NCBI RefSeq assembly: GCF_001441165.1
Contig: NZ_CP013126.1
Span: forward strand, 1,579,551 to 1,643,550
Direction of reading: 5' to 3'
Length of the DNA: 64,000 nucleotides
Source: Acidipropionibacterium acidipropionici
Lineage (GTDB): Bacteria; Actinomycetota; Actinomycetes; Propionibacteriales; Propionibacteriaceae
A model generated the notes under the pieces. The model had not been told where the DNA came from, made no database searches, and saw only the letters and a program-made list of their open reading frames with translations. Shown here in pieces: positions 24,020 through 57,988 of this stretch. The translations under genes were made by a program, and so were the position numbers. The number at the start of each line of letters is the position of its first letter. The stretch's first letter is position 1.

Positions 24020-24080
24020 GTGTCGTCGGCCTCGTGAGCACATGCTGGCGGGGTCGACGCCTCGTTGTCCGAACGGCCCC

Positions 24081-49445: not shown

Positions 49446-50204
49446 CTACTCGTGCAGCTTCTCCTTGAGGTCCGGCGGCAGCAGCAGCCCCCGGCAGATC
49501 AGCTTGTGGGCCACCACCACGGTCACCGCCTGTCCGGCCAGGATCCCCATCAGCACCAGCAGCTGAGCGGCGCCTGCCTGAACCGCGGACCCGCCGCCCA
49601 GCAGCACGCCGACGAAGGCGCCGGGCAGTGTCACCAGGCCGACGGTCCGGGTGCTGTCGACGCTTGGGATCACCGCCTCGGCGACGCTGTCCTGGGTCAC
49701 CATGCGAATGGCGTCGGCGCGCGGCAGGCCCAGCGACAGGGCCGCCTCGAAGGTGCCGATGTCCTCGCGTAGCGCGGGGAACAGACGCCGCCCGGCCAGG
49801 GTGTGGCCGTTCATCATGTTGCCGATGATGATCCCGGCGATCGGGATGAGTGCCGCGGCATTGAACGGCGACGCCCCGGAGCAGAACACGATCACCAGCA
49901 CCGGCACGATCCCCGAGGCCACCGCGACCGCCGTCCACGGCCAGGCCCTGCCCACCCCGGTGCGCCCGGCAGTCGTCCCCACGGCCACCGCGAACATCAG
50001 CAGGGCGAATCCGACGGCCGCCCACAGATGCTGCAGCGCGTAGACGAGGATCAGGGAGACCACGGCCAGCTGGATCATGGCACGCACCGAGGCGACGGCC
50101 GAGGCCCGCCCGATCCCGAGCCTCCCGACGCGGGAGATCACCATCGTCAGCGCCACAAGCGCCAGGAAGGCGACGAGGAACTGCCAGCTCGGGTTGATGG
50201 TCAT
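49446..50204 (-). CDS. FetB-like ABC exporter permease (UPF0014), partnerless
   Basis: A 252-residue membrane protein with about seven helices, of the FetB/YbbM (UPF0014) family: SVRAMIQLAVVSLIL, IAGIIIGNMMNGHTLAG, VTLPGAFVGVLLGGGSAVQA. In E. coli FetB pairs with the ATPase FetA and lowers iron toxicity under oxidative stress. No FetA-type ATPase is adjacent. The ATG at 50204 overlaps the stop of the PAP2 phosphatase gene by four bases, so the two are co-translated. The pairing of an UPF0014 permease with a lipid phosphatase is unusual. Confidence 0.9.
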   Translation of the reverse strand: MTINPSWQFLVAFLALVALTMVISRVGRLGIGRASAVASVRAMIQLAVVSLILVYALQHLWAAVGFALLMFAVAVGTTAGRTGVGRAWPWTAVAVASGIVPVLVIVFCSGASPFNAAALIPIAGIIIGNMMNGHTLAGRRLFPALREDIGTFEAALSLGLPRADAIRMVTQDSVAEAVIPSVDSTRTVGLVTLPGAFVGVLLGGGSAVQAGAAQLLVLMGILAGQAVTVVVAHKLICRGLLLPPDLKEKLHE

Positions 50205-51022
50205 GAGATCTCTCCAGGCCCGGATCGGAGCTCGTCCTCGTCCTGGCCGGCACGGCGGTCCGGACGCGCATGGCTCACCAGGGTGGTGGCCCGGACCATC
50301 AGGTATCCGGCCGCCGCGCCGTAGACGATACCGGCGGCGACATCGCTGGGGTAGTGCACTCCCAGGTACAGCCGTGACGCCGCCACCCCCGCCGCGAGTA
50401 CGCACCCCACCGCCCCGATCCACACCCGCCACCCGCGCCGGGTGCACATCACGACCACGACGACGAGCGCCGTCGTGAATGTCGCATGGCCACTGGGAAA
50501 ACTGGGATCCTGCTCCGGGCCGCCCACATGGTGGCGCAGCAGCGTCCAGGCCGGCCGGTGGCGTCCCACCAGCAGCTTCACCAGGTAGCTCGTGCCCCAG
50601 GTCAGCGCCAGCGCGATCCCCGCGCACAGCCCGTCGATCAGGTGTCGACACCGCCAGGCCACCCCTGCGGCGAGCAGCACCACCACCGCGATCGCCCGGG
50701 GCGATTCGAAGGCCCAGCTCAGCGCCCACGCGACGCCGTCGAGGGCCGGAGTGTGATGGGCGTCGATCCAGATCAGGATCCCCATCTCGGCGGTGGAGCT
50801 GCGCACCGCGAAACCGGTCGCGATCACCGCCGCCACCAGCGTGAGGCAGACCACCGGGGCCGGTCGCAGCACGCTCCAGCCCAGCCGGTCAAGCCCTCCA
50901 CGGCGATCGAGCTGGTCGGCGCGTCCAGGATTGCGGGGGGCCGGGGTGCTCCCGGGTGCGGAGGCGGGACTGCTCCCCGACGCGGTGGGTCCGGATTCCT
51001 GGACGGGGAGTTCGTCGTGCAT
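50201..51022 (-). CDS. PAP2-family membrane phosphatase (possible undecaprenyl-diphosphatase)
   Basis: A 273-residue membrane protein. A Pro/Ser-rich cytoplasmic N-terminus (~45 residues) is followed by helices and the three PAP2 motifs: KLLVGRHRP, PSGH and SRLYLGVHYPSDV. The catalytic His residues are present. Bacterial PAP2 enzymes such as PgpB, YbjG and BcrC dephosphorylate undecaprenyl diphosphate or phosphatidylglycerol phosphate. Its divergent neighbour is UppP, which makes an undecaprenyl-diphosphate role attractive. A direct-repeat motif shared with uppP and the DedA gene lies 25-42 bases upstream of its start. The FetB-like gene downstream overlaps it. Confidence 0.9.
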   Translation of the reverse strand: MHDELPVQESGPTASGSSPASAPGSTPAPRNPGRADQLDRRGGLDRLGWSVLRPAPVVCLTLVAAVIATGFAVRSSTAEMGILIWIDAHHTPALDGVAWALSWAFESPRAIAVVVLLAAGVAWRCRHLIDGLCAGIALALTWGTSYLVKLLVGRHRPAWTLLRHHVGGPEQDPSFPSGHATFTTALVVVVVMCTRRGWRVWIGAVGCVLAAGVAASRLYLGVHYPSDVAAGIVYGAAAGYLMVRATTLVSHARPDRRAGQDEDELRSGPGEIS

Positions 51023-51046
51023 CCCTCGAGCATGCCGTCCTCATCA

Positions 51047-51064
51047 CTCAGAAACCTCTCAGAA
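51047..51064. promoter_or_regulatory. Direct-repeat site 1 (CTCAGAA-N4-CTCAGAA), PAP2 promoter region
   Basis: Two identical heptamers spaced 11 bases start to start, the pattern bound by OmpR-family response regulators. With site 2 it also forms a perfect 14-base inverted repeat (51046-51059 with 51106-51119). Confidence 0.65.
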
Positions 51065-51100
51065 GCGCGTCCCGGGATCCGGCACGGCCCCCGACCCGGT

Positions 51101-51118
51101 CTCTTAGAGGTTTCTGAG
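51101..51118. promoter_or_regulatory. Direct-repeat site 2 (CTCAGAA-N4-CTAAGAG, minus strand), uppP promoter region
   Basis: On the minus strand reads CTCAGAAACCTCTAAGAG, the same arrangement as site 1. Lies 51-68 bases before the uppP start. Confidence 0.65.
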
Positions 51119-51168
51119 TTCCCGGCGGGCAGTCTCAACCTGCACACGTCATGACAGGAGGAGCACCG

Positions 51169-52038
51169 GTGAACTGGTGGCAGGCCGTCGTTCTCGGCAT
51201 CGTCGAGGGCATCACAGAATTTCTCCCGGTCTCGAGCACCGGGCACCTGCGGATCGTGGAGCACCTCATGGGCTTCCAGACGCAGGGGGCCGGGATGACT
51301 GCCTTCACCGCGATCATCCAGGTGGGCGCCATCATCGCCGCCATCATCTTCTTCTGGCGAGACATCGTCCGCATCGTCGTCGCCTGGGTCTCCGGCGTCT
51401 TCCACTCCGATGCCCGCACGAACCCCGACTACATCCTCGGCTGGGGAGTCATCATCGGCTCGATCCCGGTCGCGGTCGTCGGCCTGGCCTTCAAGAGCGC
51501 CATCGAGGGGCCGTTGGCATCCATCTGGGTGGTCGCCGGGGCGCTGGTGCTCTGGAGCCTGGTGATGCTGCTGGCCGACCGGCGCAAGAATCTCCAGCGC
51601 TCCATGCACGACGTCACCCTCGTCGACGCCGTCGTGATCGGCCTCTTCCAGGCCCTCTCCCCGCTCTTCCCCGGCGTCTCCCGCTCCGGCGCGACGATCT
51701 CGGCCGGCCTGTTCCGCGGCTTCAACCGGCCAGACGCCACCCGGCTGTCCTTCTTCATGGGGATCCCCGCCCTGGTGGCGGCCGGTGCCTACGAGGCCCT
51801 CGGTTCGGCGAGTGACATCACCGCCTCCAGTCGCATCCTGCTGTCCGGCGGGTCCGGCGTCATCGGCTGGGGCCCGACGGTGATCGCTACGATCGTGTCA
51901 CTGGTGGTGGCCTACTTCTCGATCGCCTGGCTGCTGAAGTTCGTCTCCTCGAACAAGTTCACCGGATTCATCTGGTACCGGGTGATCGTCGGGGCGCTGC
52001 TGCTGGTGCTGGCGGCCACCGGAATGATGTCCGTCTGA
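51169..52038 (+). CDS. uppP: Undecaprenyl-diphosphatase UppP (BacA)
   Basis: A 289-residue membrane enzyme that converts undecaprenyl diphosphate to undecaprenyl phosphate, recycling the lipid carrier and conferring bacitracin tolerance. EGITEFLPVSSTGH near the N-terminus carries the catalytic glutamates and Ser; PGVSRSGATIS carries the second conserved motif. Eight helices. The GTG at 51169 has AGGAGG seven bases upstream and gives the VNWWQAVVLGIVEG start common in the family, so the ATG at 51151 is rejected. It is followed after 129 bases by a response-regulator gene. Confidence 0.95.
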   Translation: MNWWQAVVLGIVEGITEFLPVSSTGHLRIVEHLMGFQTQGAGMTAFTAIIQVGAIIAAIIFFWRDIVRIVVAWVSGVFHSDARTNPDYILGWGVIIGSIPVAVVGLAFKSAIEGPLASIWVVAGALVLWSLVMLLADRRKNLQRSMHDVTLVDAVVIGLFQALSPLFPGVSRSGATISAGLFRGFNRPDATRLSFFMGIPALVAAGAYEALGSASDITASSRILLSGGSGVIGWGPTVIATIVSLVVAYFSIAWLLKFVSSNKFTGFIWYRVIVGALLLVLAATGMMSV

Positions 52039-52080
52039 GGCGGAGCATCGGAGGGCAGCGATCGTGACGACCGGCCATTT

Positions 52081-52148
52081 GGAACGACCCGACCGGAACG
52101 ACCGGCCCGACCGGAACGACCGGCCCGACCGAAACGACCGGCCCGACA
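52081..52148. repeat. 18 bp tandem repeat array before the response-regulator gene
   Basis: Three units of GGAACGACCGGCCCGACC (52095-52112, 52113-52130, and 52131-52148 with two differences) plus a shortened unit at 52081-52094. The response-regulator Shine-Dalgarno follows six bases later. Confidence 0.85.
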
Positions 52149-52167
52149 GAACCGGGAGGGCCGGGCG

Positions 52168-52830
52168 ATGACGTCGGGACGCCCACGTCTGCTGCTCATC
52201 GAGGACGACCCGAACCTGTCGGCCATCATGGCCTCCTACCTGCGCGGATACGAGGTGATCGTCGCCGCCGATGGCGGCTCCGGTCTGACGTCGGCACTGG
52301 AGAGCCCGGTCGACGTCATGGTGGTCGACCGGATGCTTCCCGTCATGGAGGGCACCGAGGTGGTGCGACGGCTCCGCCGGGCCCGGGTGAAGACCCCCAT
52401 CCTCATGCTCACCGCCCTGGGAACCGTCGCCGACAAGGTCGAGGGCCTCGATTCGGGGGCCAACGACTATCTCGTCAAGCCCTTCGACTTCGACGAGCTG
52501 GAGGCTCGCCTGCGCGCCCTGCTGCGCAGCTACGACGATGACGCCGGGGGCCTGGAGATCGGCGACTGGGACTTCCGCCCGGCCGACCGCATCATCAACT
52601 CCCCCTACATCGGCCCCATCGTCCTGACCCCCAGAGAATCAGACCTGCTGGAACTGCTGGCCCGCCACCCGGACCGCACCTACAGCCGCGACGACATCCT
52701 GGCTGCGGTGTTCTCGCCGACAGACAGCCCCGGAACCGTCGACACCTACGTCCATTACCTGCGGCAGAAGACCGAGCAGACGGTGATCCTCACCATTCGC
52801 CGCAAGGGCTACCGGCTGGGGACGCTGTGA
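52168..52830 (+). CDS. OmpR/PhoB-family response regulator
   Basis: A 220-residue regulator. The receiver domain (1-120) has acidic pocket EDD at 12-14, phosphoacceptor Asp54 (VMVVDRMLP) and Lys in YLVKPF. A C-terminal winged helix (SDLLELLARHPDRTYSRDDI; DTYVHYLRQKTE) is the OmpR type that binds direct repeats with 10-11 base spacing. The ATG at 52168 follows GGGAGGG. Its stop overlaps the kinase start (GTGA). Sites of that kind occur before the PAP2, uppP and DedA genes that flank this system, making them its probable targets. Confidence 0.95.
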   Translation: MTSGRPRLLLIEDDPNLSAIMASYLRGYEVIVAADGGSGLTSALESPVDVMVVDRMLPVMEGTEVVRRLRRARVKTPILMLTALGTVADKVEGLDSGANDYLVKPFDFDELEARLRALLRSYDDDAGGLEIGDWDFRPADRIINSPYIGPIVLTPRESDLLELLARHPDRTYSRDDILAAVFSPTDSPGTVDTYVHYLRQKTEQTVILTIRRKGYRLGTL

Positions 52831-53849
52831 GCGCGCCGAAGAGCCCCGACGAGCTGCGGGTGCGCCGGACCTCGACGCGGATGACCCGCCAGATCGGCCT
52901 GGCGACCGTCGCGGTGTCCCTGCTGTTCGTCGCGGCGGTCGTCGTCATGGTGATCCTGCAGTCGCGCCCCGCCGAGCTCAACGAGCCCGCCCGGCCCGGC
53001 GAGGTGAGGATCCATCTCAGCGCGGCCAAGACCGTCGGCCTGTCGATCGGCGTCGCGGTCGCGGCCGTCGTCTACGCGCTGGTGATCGGCCGGGTGGTGT
53101 CGCGGCGGGCGGTGCGCCCCCTGGCGGACGCCCTGGAGCTCCAGCGCCGATTCGTCGCCGACGCCTCCCACGAGCTGCGGACGCCGTTGACCGTCCTGGA
53201 CGCCCGGGTCCAGATGCTGCAGCGCGAGCTGGCCGAGGGCCAGCCGGCCGGGGAGACGGCGTCGGCCCTGCGCCAGGACACTGGGCGGCTCATCGGCATC
53301 GTCAACGACCTCCTGGCGGTCTCCGGCGACGATTCGGGGGAGGGGGCCCGCGGGCCGGGCCCGGTCGCCGACGCCTCACAGATCGTGACGTCCAGCGCCG
53401 AGTCGATGCGGGTGCTCGCCGAGCAGCGGGGGGTGTCCCTGGTGATCGACGTGGAGCCGGACCTGGAGGTGCGGATGCCGCCGGCCGGGCTGGGGCGCTG
53501 CGTCACCGCGCTGGTCGACAATGCGATCAATCACGGCTCGGGTGATCACAGTTCAGGCGATCACGGTTCGGCGCGCGGACGGGTGGAGGTCCAGCTGGCC
53601 CGCGACGACGGCCGGGCGGTGATGACCGTGTCCGACGACGGGCCCGGCATCCGCGGCGTCGCCCCCGACCGGGTCTTCGACCGGTTCGCCCACACCGAGC
53701 CCGTTGACCAGCCGGGCGCCCGTCAGAGCCTCGGCATCGGCCTGGCACTGGTCCAGGAGCTCGCGACGCGCAGTGGAGGTGGCGTCAAGGTGGCCTCCAC
53801 CGGCCCCGACGGCACGGTGATGGAGCTCACGGTGCCACTGGCTCAGTGA
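52827..53849 (+). CDS. Sensor histidine kinase, intramembrane-sensing type
   Basis: A 340-residue kinase with two membrane helices (~23-44 and ~69-88) separated by only about 24 residues. That is too short for a ligand domain and typical of intramembrane-sensing kinases (BceS/LiaS-like). DHp phosphoacceptor His115 lies in VADASHELRTP. The ATP-binding domain has N-box LVDNAINHGS, G1 DDGPGIRG and G2 GIGLALVQEL. There is no HAMP domain. The GTG start overlaps the regulator. The last 23 bases overlap the convergent glycosyltransferase gene. Confidence 0.93.
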   Translation: MSAPKSPDELRVRRTSTRMTRQIGLATVAVSLLFVAAVVVMVILQSRPAELNEPARPGEVRIHLSAAKTVGLSIGVAVAAVVYALVIGRVVSRRAVRPLADALELQRRFVADASHELRTPLTVLDARVQMLQRELAEGQPAGETASALRQDTGRLIGIVNDLLAVSGDDSGEGARGPGPVADASQIVTSSAESMRVLAEQRGVSLVIDVEPDLEVRMPPAGLGRCVTALVDNAINHGSGDHSSGDHGSARGRVEVQLARDDGRAVMTVSDDGPGIRGVAPDRVFDRFAHTEPVDQPGARQSLGIGLALVQELATRSGGGVKVASTGPDGTVMELTVPLAQ

Positions 53850-54972
53850 CCCGGCACAGCCGCTGGTAGCAGCCCTCGAAGGCGTCGAGGGTGCGGTCCA
53901 GGCCGTGGTCCTCGACGATCCGCAGGCTCCGGGCCCCCATCTCGGCCCGCAGCGGGGCGTCGCGCAGCAGGGTGGCGAGATATCCGGCCAGGGCTTCCCG
54001 GTCGCCGGGTGGGTAGAGATATCCGTTGACGCCGTGGCGCACCAGATGAGGCAGCGCCATGGCGTCGGCGGCGACCACCGGAAGCCCGCAGGCCATCGCC
54101 TCCAGTGTCACCAGGGACTGCAGCTCGGCGGTGCTCGGCATGCACAGCAGGTCGGCGCGGCGGTAGGCGTCCAGGAGTGCGTCGTCGTCGATGCGGCCGC
54201 GGAAGACGACCCGGTCCGGCCCCAGCCCCAGCTTCCGGGCGAGTGCCTTCCATCCCGGGCCGGCGCAGCCTTCCCCGACGATCTCCAGGCGGCCGGGCAC
54301 CTCGGCGGGCAGCAGGGCGATGGCCTCCAGGGCGTCCTCCACATGCTTCTCGGGATCCAATCGGCCGACGAAGAGCACGGTCGGCACACCGCCCGTGGCC
54401 GGTTCCCGGTGGAATCGCCGGGTGTCGACGCCGTTGGAGACCGCGAGGACGTCCAAGCCGGTATGGGTGTGCAGCAGGTCGGCGGCCCGCGGCGTCGGGG
54501 AGGTGACGATCCCGGCGCGGCTGTAGGCGCTGGTCAGGTTGCGCCAGATGATCGCCGAGGCCAGCCGCCGCAGCCCGGTGGGGACGGGCAGGCGGTCCAG
54601 GACGTTGGCCGGCATGAGGTGGTTGGTGGCCACCGCGCCGATGCCGCGGGCCGCGGCGGCGTCCATCAGGGCCCGTCCGAGCAGGTATCCGCTCTGGACG
54701 TGCAGCACATCGGGTTCGACGTCGTCGATGAGTCGGCGGGCAACCCGCCGCAGGCCGCGGGGGCTGCTGAGCGGGAAGTCCGGGCAGCCCGGGTAGCGCA
54801 GCGAGCGGATCCGGTGGATGACGACGCCCTGCTCGCCGGTGAGTGTGCCGGGCTCCCCGGTGGTCGAGGGGCAGGCGACGTGCACCGTGTGGCCGCGGGC
54901 CAGACGCCGGGTGGCCTGCGCGGCGCCGTTGATGGTGGGCGGATAGGTGTCCGCGCCGATGAGGATTCTCAT
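53827..54972 (-). CDS. GT4-family glycosyltransferase
   Basis: A 381-residue cytoplasmic or membrane-associated GT-B glycosyltransferase (GT4). It has an N-terminal acceptor domain (ILIGADTYPPTINGAAQATR) and a C-terminal donor domain with VLFVGRLDPEKHVEDALEAI and STAELQSLVTLEAMACGLPV, whose glutamate contacts the nucleotide sugar. The segment after NGAAQATR appears several residues shorter than is usual in this group, where the loop normally reads through to a GH-motif. This may be a real deletion. The ATG overlaps the upstream fusion gene by four bases. It is the last gene of a three-gene operon starting with the DedA gene. Confidence 0.88.
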   Translation of the reverse strand: MRILIGADTYPPTINGAAQATRRLARGHTVHVACPSTTGEPGTLTGEQGVVIHRIRSLRYPGCPDFPLSSPRGLRRVARRLIDDVEPDVLHVQSGYLLGRALMDAAAARGIGAVATNHLMPANVLDRLPVPTGLRRLASAIIWRNLTSAYSRAGIVTSPTPRAADLLHTHTGLDVLAVSNGVDTRRFHREPATGGVPTVLFVGRLDPEKHVEDALEAIALLPAEVPGRLEIVGEGCAGPGWKALARKLGLGPDRVVFRGRIDDDALLDAYRRADLLCMPSTAELQSLVTLEAMACGLPVVAADAMALPHLVRHGVNGYLYPPGDREALAGYLATLLRDAPLRAEMGARSLRIVEDHGLDRTLDAFEGCYQRLCRVTEPVAP

Positions 54973-57260
54973 GCGGGGCTTTCGGTGATGAGGGTCGGAC
55001 GCAGTCGGGGGTTGCCCGCGGCCAGGCGGTAGACGTCGAGGACGGATCGCGCGAATCGGTCGCGGCCGAAGAGTCGACGGGCCTCGACGGCGGCGGCCGA
55101 GGCGTCCAGCACCGGGGCGGGGTCGACGGCCAGCCCGATGAGGCGCCGGGTGAGGCCGTTGGGCCCGAAGGCCGGGATGCCGGCCCGGTCGACCCCCTCG
55201 GTGAGTGCCGGGTCGCACCAGATGACGCCGCGCAGCGCGGTGACGGATTCAGCCACCGTCATCGGCTGGTTGTCCCAGCCCAGCGAACTGAGGACGCTGC
55301 AGTGGCTGCGAGCGAGCCATCGCGGGATGTCGTCGTGGGGCACCCGTCCATGGAGGTGGATCCCGGGGCGGTCGTCGACCAGCCGGGCCGCGGCGCAGAA
55401 CTGCGGGCCGGTGCCGAGCAGGTCGATGCGCAGCAGACCGGGGCCGACGACGTCGAGGGCCTCGATGGCCGCGGCCAGGAAGGGCAGGACGCGCTTCTCG
55501 GGGGCGAACCGGCCGGTCCACAGCACCCTCAACGGGCCGTCGATCGTGGTGACCGGCCGGGCGTCCGGGGCCTCGGCGACGGTGTTGGGCACGACGTCGA
55601 CGCGGGTCAGCCCGGCGTCGCGCAGGTGTTCGGCCTGGTGGGCCGAGGGGGAGATGACGCGGTCGGCGTGCTGGGCGACGGTCAGGGTCATGTTGCGCAG
55701 GGCTGAGTCGCCGGACAGCCGGGCCAGCTGAGCGGTGGTGCCGGCGTAGCCCGTGACCAGGCGGTGGAAGCGGGGCACGACGAGCCGCAGCAGCGGCTGC
55801 GCGGCGGCCGGGGCCTGCCAGAAGAAGGTGTGCACCGTCTCGGCGGCGGGAATGCCAAGCTCGTGGGCGACGTCGATGGCCGCGGCGGCGATCCCGAACT
55901 CGGAGTGGACGTGGACGGCGTCGATGCGGTGGGCGATGAAAGCGTTGCGCAGCGCGGCGCGCAGGCGCGCGGTGTTGCGTGCGACGGGTAGGCCGAGACC
56001 GGGGAGGGTGAGGGCGACGGGCACCGGGAACGCGGTGATGCCCGGGTGGCGTCCCAGGGCGGCCAGGGCCGGGCTGGCGGGGCAGGCGATCAGGACGTCG
56101 GCGGACGCGGCGAGGGCCCGGGCCTGCTCGCCGAAAGCGCTCTCGGCGCCGCCGAGGGTGGCCATCGTGTAGTCGCTCACCAGGGCGATGCGGGGTCTGT
56201 GGGCGGAGTGGGGATGCGTCGGGTCGTCGTCGGGTGCCGAGTCGGACAGGGCGGTGCGGTAGGCCGCCGGGTGGGTTGCCGGGCCCGGGGTGGGCGGCGT
56301 CGGCTGCTTGTGGGAGCGGGCCCGCGACAGTGCGGCGACGCCGGCGGCCGCGAGCAGCCCGCAGACGGCCATGGCCGCGATGGACAGGGCGGTCTCGGAG
56401 CGGCCCTCGCCGAGGACCGTGAGCCCCAGGGTCGCCGCGACGATCGGGTCGATCGTGGTGAGTGCGGCCACCACGATCTCGGCGTGGCCCAGGGCGTAGG
56501 CCTGCTGGACGATGACGCCGCCGACCAGGCAGGCGGCCAGGGCGCCGGCGGCCGTGGTGATGACCGACGTCGAGGTCAGGGCGTCGCCGGCGGAGAGCAG
56601 GCTGAATCCCAGCCGGACAAGGGTGGCCGTCAATCCGTAGAAGACGGCCCCCGACGCTCCCAGGGCCAGGCATCGCAGCCCGGCGGGTGCGAGCCGGTGG
56701 GTGGCTGTCAGGGTGGCTCCGACAAGGCAGGATATCGCGGCGCCGGCGAGGACCGGGGTGACGCCGGGGATGGCCGCCGGGGTGGTGGTCGTGGTGGTCG
56801 AGAAGACCGTGAAGCCGATGAGGCCGGCCAGGGTCAGTGCCACTGAGGCCCAGGTGGCTCCGGTCCGGCGGCTGCCGGAGTGGCCCCGGCGGCGACCGGC
56901 GCCGGAGGGGGCGAGCAGCACCGACCAGACGACGGCCATCACACCGAGGGGCTGGATCACCGTCACGGGAGCCAGGCGCAGGGCGGCCAGGTTGAGCAGG
57001 GTGGCGACGACGACGGCGAGCATGCCGGCCAGCCATGCGGGGCGGCGGATCATGGCGGCGAGTTGGCGTCGCGTCATCGTCGTGGCGTGGGACTGGCTGG
57101 TCGGTGTAGCGGCCGGGCGGCCCGAGTCCTGGTGCGTTGAGGCTGAACGTGTCGAGTCTGACTGTGTCGACGCCGTGGCGGAGCGGTGCTGCAGGACGGA
57201 GCCGCCGGCCAGCCCGAAGGATCCCAGGCCGGCCAGCGCGATCGCCGGTGCGAGTGCCAT
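54969..57260 (-). CDS. Fusion of a DMT (EamA-like) transporter with a GT4 glycosyltransferase
   Basis: A 763-residue two-part protein. Residues ~1-310 are a drug/metabolite-transporter-like membrane domain with about nine or ten helices. A Ser/Thr-rich insertion lies at ~25-60, and it includes LAPVTVIQPLGVMAVVWSVLL and ALTTIDPIVAATLGL. After a Pro-rich linker (~313-353) a full GT4 glycosyltransferase begins at ~355 (RIALVSDYTMATLGGAESAF) and ends with VLWTGRFAPEKRVLPFL and WDNQPMTVAESVTALRGV. The ATG at 57260 is two bases after the DedA stop. A transporter joined to a glycosyltransferase in one chain suggests coupled synthesis and membrane transfer of a glycolipid. The substrate is unknown. 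Confidence 0.85.
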   Translation of the reverse strand: MALAPAIALAGLGSFGLAGGSVLQHRSATASTQSDSTRSASTHQDSGRPAATPTSQSHATTMTRRQLAAMIRRPAWLAGMLAVVVATLLNLAALRLAPVTVIQPLGVMAVVWSVLLAPSGAGRRRGHSGSRRTGATWASVALTLAGLIGFTVFSTTTTTTPAAIPGVTPVLAGAAISCLVGATLTATHRLAPAGLRCLALGASGAVFYGLTATLVRLGFSLLSAGDALTSTSVITTAAGALAACLVGGVIVQQAYALGHAEIVVAALTTIDPIVAATLGLTVLGEGRSETALSIAAMAVCGLLAAAGVAALSRARSHKQPTPPTPGPATHPAAYRTALSDSAPDDDPTHPHSAHRPRIALVSDYTMATLGGAESAFGEQARALAASADVLIACPASPALAALGRHPGITAFPVPVALTLPGLGLPVARNTARLRAALRNAFIAHRIDAVHVHSEFGIAAAAIDVAHELGIPAAETVHTFFWQAPAAAQPLLRLVVPRFHRLVTGYAGTTAQLARLSGDSALRNMTLTVAQHADRVISPSAHQAEHLRDAGLTRVDVVPNTVAEAPDARPVTTIDGPLRVLWTGRFAPEKRVLPFLAAAIEALDVVGPGLLRIDLLGTGPQFCAAARLVDDRPGIHLHGRVPHDDIPRWLARSHCSVLSSLGWDNQPMTVAESVTALRGVIWCDPALTEGVDRAGIPAFGPNGLTRRLIGLAVDPAPVLDASAAAVEARRLFGRDRFARSVLDVYRLAAGNPRLRPTLITESPA

Positions 57261-57262
57261 GG

Positions 57263-57895
57263 TCAGCTGCTCGCGGGGGTGCGGCGCCGGCGCAGGGCGG
57301 TCAGGGCGATGGGGAGCAGGGAGAGGATGACGACGCCAATCATCACGACGTCGATGTGGCCGGTGACAAGGGGAATCGAGGCGAAGAGGATGCCCACGAG
57401 CACCATGGAGACGGCCCAGACGGCGCCGCCGACCGGGTTCCACAGGAGGAAGCGGCGGTAGGGCATGTCGGCCATGCCGGCGGCCAGGGGGACGTAGGTG
57501 CGCACCACGGGGACGAACCGGCCCATCACAAGGGAGAAGCCGCCATAGCGGGTGAAGAAGTCCTCGGCGCGTGCCAGGTACTCGGGTTTCAGGACGCGGG
57601 CACCGGGCTTGAACAGGCGGCGTCCGAATCGTCGGCCGAGCCAGAAGCCCACCTGGTCGCCGGCGAAGGCCGCGATCACCGCGACCGCGGCGATCTGCCA
57701 TGCGGGGAAGCCGAGCTGCGGGGCGAGGATGCCGGCCGTCACGAGCAGGGAGTCGCCCGGAAGGAAGGGGAACAGCACCCCGGACTCGATGAAGATCACC
57801 ACGGCGACCCCGGCCAGCAGCCAGGGGCCGAAGGAGTGGAGCAGGGAGGCCGCGTCGAACAGGTGGACCTGCAGGAGGATCGGGAGGTCAACCAT
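57263..57895 (-). CDS. DedA-family membrane protein
   Basis: A 210-residue protein with the DedA fold: a conserved acidic residue in FIESGVLFPFLPGD, a re-entrant region, and the essential arginines in GRFVPVVRTYVPLAAG. DedA proteins are now linked to undecaprenyl-phosphate flipping (UptA) and other phospholipid scrambling. A third copy of the PAP2/uppP direct-repeat motif lies 76-93 bases upstream. First gene of the operon with the DMT-GT fusion and the GT4 enzyme, so lipid-carrier supply and sugar transfer are co-expressed. Confidence 0.93.
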   Translation of the reverse strand: MVDLPILLQVHLFDAASLLHSFGPWLLAGVAVVIFIESGVLFPFLPGDSLLVTAGILAPQLGFPAWQIAAVAVIAAFAGDQVGFWLGRRFGRRLFKPGARVLKPEYLARAEDFFTRYGGFSLVMGRFVPVVRTYVPLAAGMADMPYRRFLLWNPVGGAVWAVSMVLVGILFASIPLVTGHIDVVMIGVVILSLLPIALTALRRRRTPASS

Positions 57896-57970
57896 GGTGG
57901 GCCTCCGCCGTCACCGTGGCCTGCCCGATCAGTTCGTCGATATGCACACCACGAGGGTGACGCGGGGAAA

Positions 57971-57988
57971 CTCAGGAACCTCTAAGAA
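57971..57988. promoter_or_regulatory. Direct-repeat site 3 (CTCAGGA-N4-CTAAGAA), DedA promoter region
   Basis: Matches sites 1 and 2 near uppP at nearly every position, including the ACCT spacer and 11-base period. The only other candidate of this kind noticed in the window. Confidence 0.65.

Follow-up and report, generated by a model that had tools for sequence, protein, structure and literature searches.

In a stretch of 64,000 nucleotides from Acidipropionibacterium acidipropionici (contig NZ_CP013126.1, positions 1,579,551 to 1,643,550), called the window below, three copies of an 18-base direct repeat stand before three operons for envelope proteins, and together with an OmpR-type response regulator encoded in one of these operons they probably constitute one regulon. 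The first genes of the operons encode a PAP2-family phosphatase, the undecaprenyl-diphosphate phosphatase UppP and a DedA-family membrane protein. A reading of the sequence alone had given the positions and letters of the three sites and had placed them before these genes; all three turned out to be perfect copies at those positions, and both coordinates and family searches agree with the genes named. The sites, with the -10-like box that follows each, are:

51047 to 51064, candidate regulator site of the PAP2-fetB operon, gene on the minus strand; plus-strand reading CTCAGAAACCTCTCAGAA, in gene sense TTCTGAGAGGTTTCTGAG (TTCTGAG-AGGT-TTCTGAG); -10-like box CATGCT at 51034-51029, 12 nt past the repeat and one off the usual 11; 40 nt from the first half-site to the ATG
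51101 to 51118, candidate regulator site of the uppP-regulator-kinase operon, gene on the plus strand; minus-strand reading CTCAGAAACCTCTAAGAG, in gene sense CTCTTAGAGGTTTCTGAG (CTCTTAG-AGGT-TTCTGAG); -10-like box CAGTCT at 51130-51135, 11 nt past the repeat
57971 to 57988, candidate regulator site of the DedA operon, gene on the minus strand; plus-strand reading CTCAGGAACCTCTAAGAA, in gene sense TTCTTAGAGGTTCCTGAG (TTCTTAG-AGGT-TCCTGAG); -10-like box CACCCT at 57959-57954, 11 nt past the repeat

The three sites span less than 7 kb, and they are oriented alike relative to their own genes, the CTCAG reading being on the strand opposite the gene. A scan of the whole genome (3,651,382 bases) with the pattern CTMAGRRACCTCTMAGRR, a check that the sequence-only reading had proposed, gave exactly three perfect matches, which are the sites of the window; there were none with one or two mismatches and 22 with three, and the pattern read backwards gave 73 matches at up to three mismatches. 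In the window alone the number of matches at up to three mismatches is unremarkable, three as compared to a shuffle mean of 1.16, with at least three in 13 of 100 shuffles, yet all three sites are perfect. The AGGT spacer that they share is a local feature, as the spacer is variable in relatives. When it was left free, at least one further perfect match was found in the same genome among the matches listed, at C1:3522834 (L211). This repeat differs in its spacer (CTCAGGAGGTCCTCAGAG) and lacks YANNNT, the -10-like box, where it would be expected.

Genes of the module

The genes around the sites are, in order of position:

49446 to 50204, minus strand, FetB/UPF0014-like ABC permease (PF03649, 176.5 bits), sharing 4 bases with the end of the PAP2 gene
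50201 to 51022, minus strand, PAP2-family membrane phosphatase of 273 residues (PF01569, 82.4 bits; motifs KLLVGRHRP, PSGH and SRLYLGVHYPSD)
51151 to 52038, alternative start 51169, plus strand, uppP, undecaprenyl-diphosphate phosphatase (PF02673, 273 bits; NF001392, 348 bits, above its cut-off of 308)
52168 to 52830, plus strand, OmpR-type response regulator of 220 residues (PF00072, Response_reg, 85.8 bits; PF00486, Trans_reg_C, 59.8 bits)
52827 to 53849, plus strand, sensor histidine kinase of 340 residues (HisKA and HATPase_c; two predicted membrane helices and a short acidic loop with ELNE)
53827 to 54972, minus strand, GT4-type glycosyltransferase of 381 residues (PF00534, 118 bits), last gene of the probable DedA operon
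54969 to 57260, minus strand, membrane protein fused to a GT4-type glycosyltransferase, 763 residues (PF13439, 64.6 bits), directly after DedA
57263 to 57895, minus strand, DedA (VTT-domain) membrane protein of 210 residues (PF09335, 85.8 bits; GRFVPVVRT)

UppP carries the EGITEF and PGVSRSGAT motifs and scores as a member of its curated model. It is the second copy in the genome, 75% identical to the copy at C1:1374179, and that other locus has no site at the threshold of the promoter-style score described below. The PAP2 protein did not reach any NCBIfam cut-off, the SepP, PgpB and PRK11837 models being far below theirs; the FetB-like permease reached 95 bits with the FetB model TIGR00245 (cut-off 410), DedA 50-59 bits with the UptA models (cut-offs 250-300), and the 381-residue glycosyltransferase no cut-off among the models shown. 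DedA has two arginines 6 residues apart, as R130 and R136 of YghB, and arginines of this type are described as essential for flipping (PMC10127716; this and all other papers are cited from excerpts), flipping by the window protein being a prediction. The suggestion that all targets are tied to the recycling of undecaprenyl phosphate fits UppP, PAP2 and a DedA with these two arginines. The receiver and Trans_reg_C domains bear out the OmpR type of the regulator, and hydropathy gives the kinase an extracytoplasmic loop of about 24-28 residues, acidic and containing ELNE, close to the roughly 24 residues first read from the sequence.

DedA, the membrane/GT4 fusion and the second GT4 gene probably form one operon. 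The genes for uppP, the regulator and the kinase are codirectional and have no other site among them, which makes autoregulation of the regulator probable. The 54969-57260 frame is an unusual fusion, a multi-helix membrane region with a short, weak match to the NIPA/DMT-type family PF05653 (29.4 bits) being followed by the GT4 domain in a single frame.

Relatives of the regulator and their neighbourhoods

A scan of relatives for the regulator gave 80 loci, and eight non-actinobacterial ones (L107, L108, L110-L115) were dropped afterwards. A midpoint-rooted tree of 86 regulators was split by hand into clade A, of 56 rows with the window among them, and B, of 30. Two branches of the tree are combined in B, whose loci L085 and L099 have PAP2; clade A contains duplicates and near-duplicates (L036/L122, which have the same regulator sequence, L042/L100, L102/L124 and L059/L067). 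The regulator of L050 (JACEFY010000006.1), titled Stenotrophomonas maltophilia, falls among those of Microbacterium; the locus is probably a contaminating contig and was kept in the counts.

On the tree, clade A regulators are found near DedA, DUF347 and PAP2 genes, and many B rows near ApbE, FMN-binding, ferric-reductase-like and VIT genes. We counted neighbours in 37 of the 55 clade-A loci (at least 15 kb, window left out), 14 of the 30 B loci and 39 of 40 control stretches (one contig was too short), the control places having been picked by the analyst and partly from the same genomes. Beside clade A regulators DedA was found in 25/37 loci (controls 1/39), DUF347 likewise in 25/37 (1/39), PAP2 in 16/37 (2/39) and GT39 in 8/37 (1/39). 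UppP was found beside none of the 37; otherwise it occurs in the window, in L046, in L106 (B) and on the plasmid pP27867_1. To judge from these neighbourhoods, the core of the module is DedA, DUF347 and PAP2, with uppP an occasional member. Among loci of at least 10 kb, 39 of 45 in A as compared to 2 of 16 in B hold at least one of PAP2, DedA, DUF347 and UppP, and the recognition-helix core of the regulator is nearly invariant across A and B.

DUF347 occurs in 63 of 246 genomes of the class, and the site precedes it in two of the 30 loci examined, one of which also has DedA (76%) and a regulator (54%) of the window type. The idea of the site as a general DUF347 element was rejected on this count, which indicates that the site goes with the type of regulator and not with DUF347 as such.

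Promoter anatomy

In related actinobacteria the direct repeat, in gene sense TTCTKAG-N4-TTCTKAG, recurs before DUF347, PAP2, DedA and regulator genes. The motif, whose absence from related promoters would have spoken against the regulon, is conserved beside orthologs of the regulator, with gaps at many loci. The 86 sources contain 28 distinct strict repeats, of which 17 have NANNNT exactly 11 nt downstream, and any other offset from 3 to 24 has it in at most three; the stricter YANNNT is found at 11 nt in 10 of the 28. The repeat is placed where a -35 element would stand. Regulators of the OmpR/PhoB type bind direct repeats with a period of about 11 bp ahead of a -10 box, and such spacing between repeat and -10 box is the geometry of PhoB/PmrA-type activation.

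A promoter-style score applied to the 56 clade-A sources put 55 of 87 matches at the 5' ends of target genes, which make up 3.5% of the sequence; of the backwards control 5 of 32 matches were in target windows, and of six column permutations 0 of 60. In clade A the site was found at 24 of 38 DUF347 starts, 9 of 15 PAP2 starts, one of two UppP starts and none of 20 kinase starts. Alignments served to estimate the gene starts in these counts and in that of the DUF347 loci above, and there are some paralogs in the regulator class (e.g. in L055). The named genera with sites number ten, some of them represented by a single near-threshold site. A fairer test is given by the 42 clade-A sources that lack a strict site, where 21 matches were in target windows and 18 outside. 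The first unselective count, of CTMAG-N6-CTMAG in the 80 loci, gave a modest 23 as compared to 12 backwards.

Distribution in the genus

The genus was represented by five genomes, G000 (the genome of the window) to G004, of which G002 is 86% complete. The 17-base form of the repeat was found only in G000 (three copies) and G002 (two), and the same two have an ortholog of the regulator, the G002 copy being 72% identical; the best regulator matches in the other three had E-values of 2.5e-29 to 3.8e-31. PAP2 matches and a close DedA are likewise confined to G000 and G002, the best DedA of the other three being 35-37% identical. There are two copies of uppP in G000, 75% identical, and one each in G001, G003 and G004; it was not found in the incomplete G002. 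From this distribution the package of uppP, PAP2, DedA, regulator and sites in the window looks accessory. A PAP2-DedA pair has a single site in front of it in G002, and each of the two genes has its own in the window, which suggests that membership is kept despite a changed order. On contig 13 of G002 (L036, L209) the kinase and DedA matches are split over two frames, perhaps by metagenome-assembly errors.

Plasmid loci and mobility

After the score had been fixed it was applied to eight of 12 plasmid records, with a gene table that was typed by hand and left out some small genes. Twelve of the 14 matches were at most 180 nt upstream of a gene on the same strand, and all of these were module genes, as compared to none of seven in the backwards control. 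The genes were PAP2, DUF347, GT39, GT2-GtrA, DedA, ferric-reductase-like and regulator genes, and seven of the 12 upstream sites were at 34-40 nt. On the Cryobacterium arcticum plasmid pP27867_1 the module consists of PAP2-regulator-kinase, DedA, DUF347-UppP, a GT2-GtrA protein and a GT39 mannosyltransferase-like protein; there is a site before each of the five transcription units and no other match in the 18.6-kb stretch. A Cd-family P-type ATPase gene and two ArsR genes adjoin the module there.

It is likely, as far as such comparisons can tell, that the module is a horizontally mobile, self-contained actinobacterial regulon. The sequence-only reading had proposed a self-contained regulon of the local regulator, and this part stands well: the sites are confined to the neighbourhood, absent from the three genus members without the regulator, conserved beside its orthologs and placed like activator sites. 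The shortage of lipid carrier that it gave as the signal is now one of two live hypotheses. The observation also reaches beyond the earlier claim, in that the comparisons between genomes and plasmids point to a conserved and transferable actinobacterial regulon, with DUF347 and glycosyltransferase genes among its conserved candidate targets.

Several results weigh against the regulon. The second repeat of G002 is behind a CorC-like frame and no target is evident for it, and three of the eight plasmid loci (L202, L204, L205) have no site before a module gene. In clade A the score placed a site at just 10 of 54 regulator starts and 7 of 31 DedA starts. The clade-A counts are also partly circular, because the score was set by eye on 28 strict sites from most of the loci, among them one at 24080 of the window that is probably there by chance. 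A scan of 34 relatives' genomes with the 17-base core gave 52 matches (in 24 of the 34) as compared to 103 backwards; since the core matches are fewer than those of the control, whole-genome scans with the core only are uninformative. The regulon is favoured by the three genus members that lack both the regulator and the repeat, and by the conservation and activator-like placement of the repeat beside regulator orthologs.

Proposed mechanism and signal

In the favoured reading the kinase would respond through its short, acidic loop outside the membrane and pass phosphate to the OmpR-type regulator, which would then bind the direct repeats of 11-bp period that are seen at the -35 position. The regulator would activate the PAP2-fetB, uppP-regulator-kinase and DedA-membrane/GT4-GT4 operons, and activation of the second of these would imply positive autoregulation. 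Proteins of the UppP and PAP2 families dephosphorylate undecaprenyl diphosphate on the outside, and the return of undecaprenyl phosphate is the work of DedA proteins (PMC12826051). Going by their families, the window proteins UppP and PAP2 would raise dephosphorylation at the outer face and DedA would bring undecaprenyl phosphate back to the inner face, and this recycling may support glycosylation or other modification of the envelope under stress.

As to the signal, we tentatively favour metal ions or another cationic envelope challenge, sensed by an acidic loop that often contains ExxE, in the manner of ColRS and PmrAB; this we place slightly ahead of carrier shortage. Of 43 distinct clade-A loops 19 contain ExxE, as compared to a mean of 6.1 after shuffling, and so do 7 of 13 clade-B loops (1.2 after shuffling), the sequences being related and the incomplete loops L036 and L056 scored as lacking it. 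A metal transporter of any kind, mostly FetB or VIT, was beside 9/37 clade-A regulators as compared to 3/39 controls (p=0.06), and with metal regulators included the count was 10/37 to 3/39 (p=0.03); FetB alone gave 5/37 to 1/39 and VIT 4/37 to 0/39. Speaking against such a signal, the loops of some lineages have no ExxE, P-type ATPase genes are not enriched beside clade A (1/37 to 1/39), and neither are CDF, ArsR or CsoR genes. The lack of enrichment of these four families weakens a broad metal-island reading.

The sequence-only reading had the kinase sense shortage of the lipid carrier; in its wider form, where shortage or trapping of the carrier, or bacitracin-like drugs, induce recycling as SigM does in Bacillus subtilis, this seems to us somewhat unlikely. 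In its favour, UppP, PAP2 and DedA belong to one pathway, the loop is short as in intramembrane-sensing kinases, and SigM does control bcrC and uptA and answer reduced undecaprenyl phosphate (PMC11081497). However, uppP is near the regulator in none of the 37 clade-A loci, and the DUF347, ferric-reductase-like and iron-exporter-like neighbours would be left unexplained. Neither is a BceAB-type transporter among the annotated neighbours and window genes examined, though no dedicated search for one was made.

Slightly less likely is resistance to metal excess, in which C55-PP (undecaprenyl diphosphate) phosphatases would release phosphate outside the cell and precipitate metals, with DUF347 or FetB as exporters. 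According to a paper on metals in Frankia, three operons that include UppP and DUF347 are raised under lead stress, and export and precipitation were proposed there (PMC4531530, the organism not being named in the sentence concerned), and the ATPase and ArsR genes beside the pP27867_1 module, the FetB and VIT counts and the ExxE loops all agree with such a role. On the other hand, metal transporters as a whole only reach the p-values given above, P-type ATPases are no more frequent than in the controls, and DedA and the glycosyltransferases have no place in this explanation.

That the sites are bound mainly by another regulator, e.g. the paralogous B-type one at C1:1468922, is improbable. The repeat is present at clade-B loci too, and B regulators have almost the same recognition helix, but the B locus of the same genome has one match only, near the threshold and in a coding region, and neither the window-type regulator nor the repeat is present in the other genus members. 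Chance likeness of three short repeats, which the window shuffles would allow, was rejected as having practically no probability in view of the perfect matches found nowhere else in the genome, the kept spacing to the -10-like box and the plasmid loci tested later.

Comparison with known systems

The PmrAB system has a direct repeat of similar period before envelope genes, an ExxE loop and a carrier-linked sugar modification. The module resembles it in repeat period, envelope targets and ExxE loop, and differs in its Gram-positive hosts and in the letters of the repeat; with the NCBIfam PmrA model NF007928 the regulator scored 114.7 bits, under the cut-off of 330. BceRS and LiaRS have two-helix kinases with a very short loop and envelope targets, and LiaR is of the NarL type. 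A BceS-type kinase has two helices, a loop of less than about 25 residues and a BceAB transporter as partner, and the loop of the window kinase is estimated at about 24-28. Two predicted helices, a similarly short loop and the envelope targets are shared with the window system, whereas its regulator is OmpR-type and BceAB and LiaF are not among the annotated neighbours, BceAB without a dedicated search.

In Pseudomonas putida the ExxE-bearing ColS senses Fe3+ and zinc, and among the genes activated by ColR are PP0900, of the PAP2 type, and the GtrA-family operon PP0035 (PMC4074579, PMC2689224). An OmpR-family two-component system, an ExxE kinase and a PAP2 gene in the regulon are common to both, whereas ColRS has a T-tract consensus, a 96-residue periplasmic loop and lipid A targets. 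UppP, DedA and DUF347 are not named among its targets in the excerpts of these papers. The window repeat differs from the ColR consensus (PMC2689224), and orthology to ColR was not judged by a tree. SigM is similar in its joint control of the undecaprenyl phosphate recycling genes bcrC and uptA, but it is an extracytoplasmic function (ECF) sigma factor with a large regulon and the window has a local two-component system (PMC11081497). The lead-raised operons combine UppP and DUF347 as on pP27867_1, with no regulator or site named in the part of the paper cited (PMC4531530).

These likenesses suggest by analogy that the module works like ColRS and PmrAB, as an actinobacterial counterpart that controls carrier recycling and envelope modification; searches of the open-access literature gave no description of this actinobacterial system. 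More speculatively, it may be a Gram-positive counterpart with an Arn/Gtr-like modification, a transferable switch that senses cations or metals, induces extra UppP, PAP2, DedA, DUF347 and carrier-linked glycosyltransferases, and re-decorates the envelope. The glycosyltransferases would be the GT2-GtrA synthase and the GT39 protein on pP27867_1, and the membrane/GT4 fusion and GT4 in the window; BLASTP gave no significant match between either of the latter two and the GT2-GtrA protein of the plasmid. If true, this would clearly exemplify how regulation can set one DedA paralog apart for a special role.

Environmental or regulatory specialisation was raised in a 2023 DedA study as a possible reason for the several DedA proteins and undecaprenyl-diphosphate phosphatases per bacterium (PMC10127716). 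Phosphatases and DedA under one transferable two-component switch with a readable DNA signature would make this idea directly testable, and DUF347, a widespread family of unknown function, gains a regulatory partner.

Minor observations

The paralogous B-type regulator-kinase pair of the same genome lies outside the window (L208, G000 C1:1461000-1479000, around C1:1468922). VIT is upstream of the pair, and beyond its other end are ApbE, FMN-binding and ferric-reductase-like genes. The arrangement recurs on several actinobacterial plasmids, and the locus has the appearance of a mobile system tied to iron or redox functions.

Between uppP and the regulator gene, at 52088-52147, there is a tandem repeat with 3.3 copies of the 18-base unit CCCGACCGGAACGACCGG.

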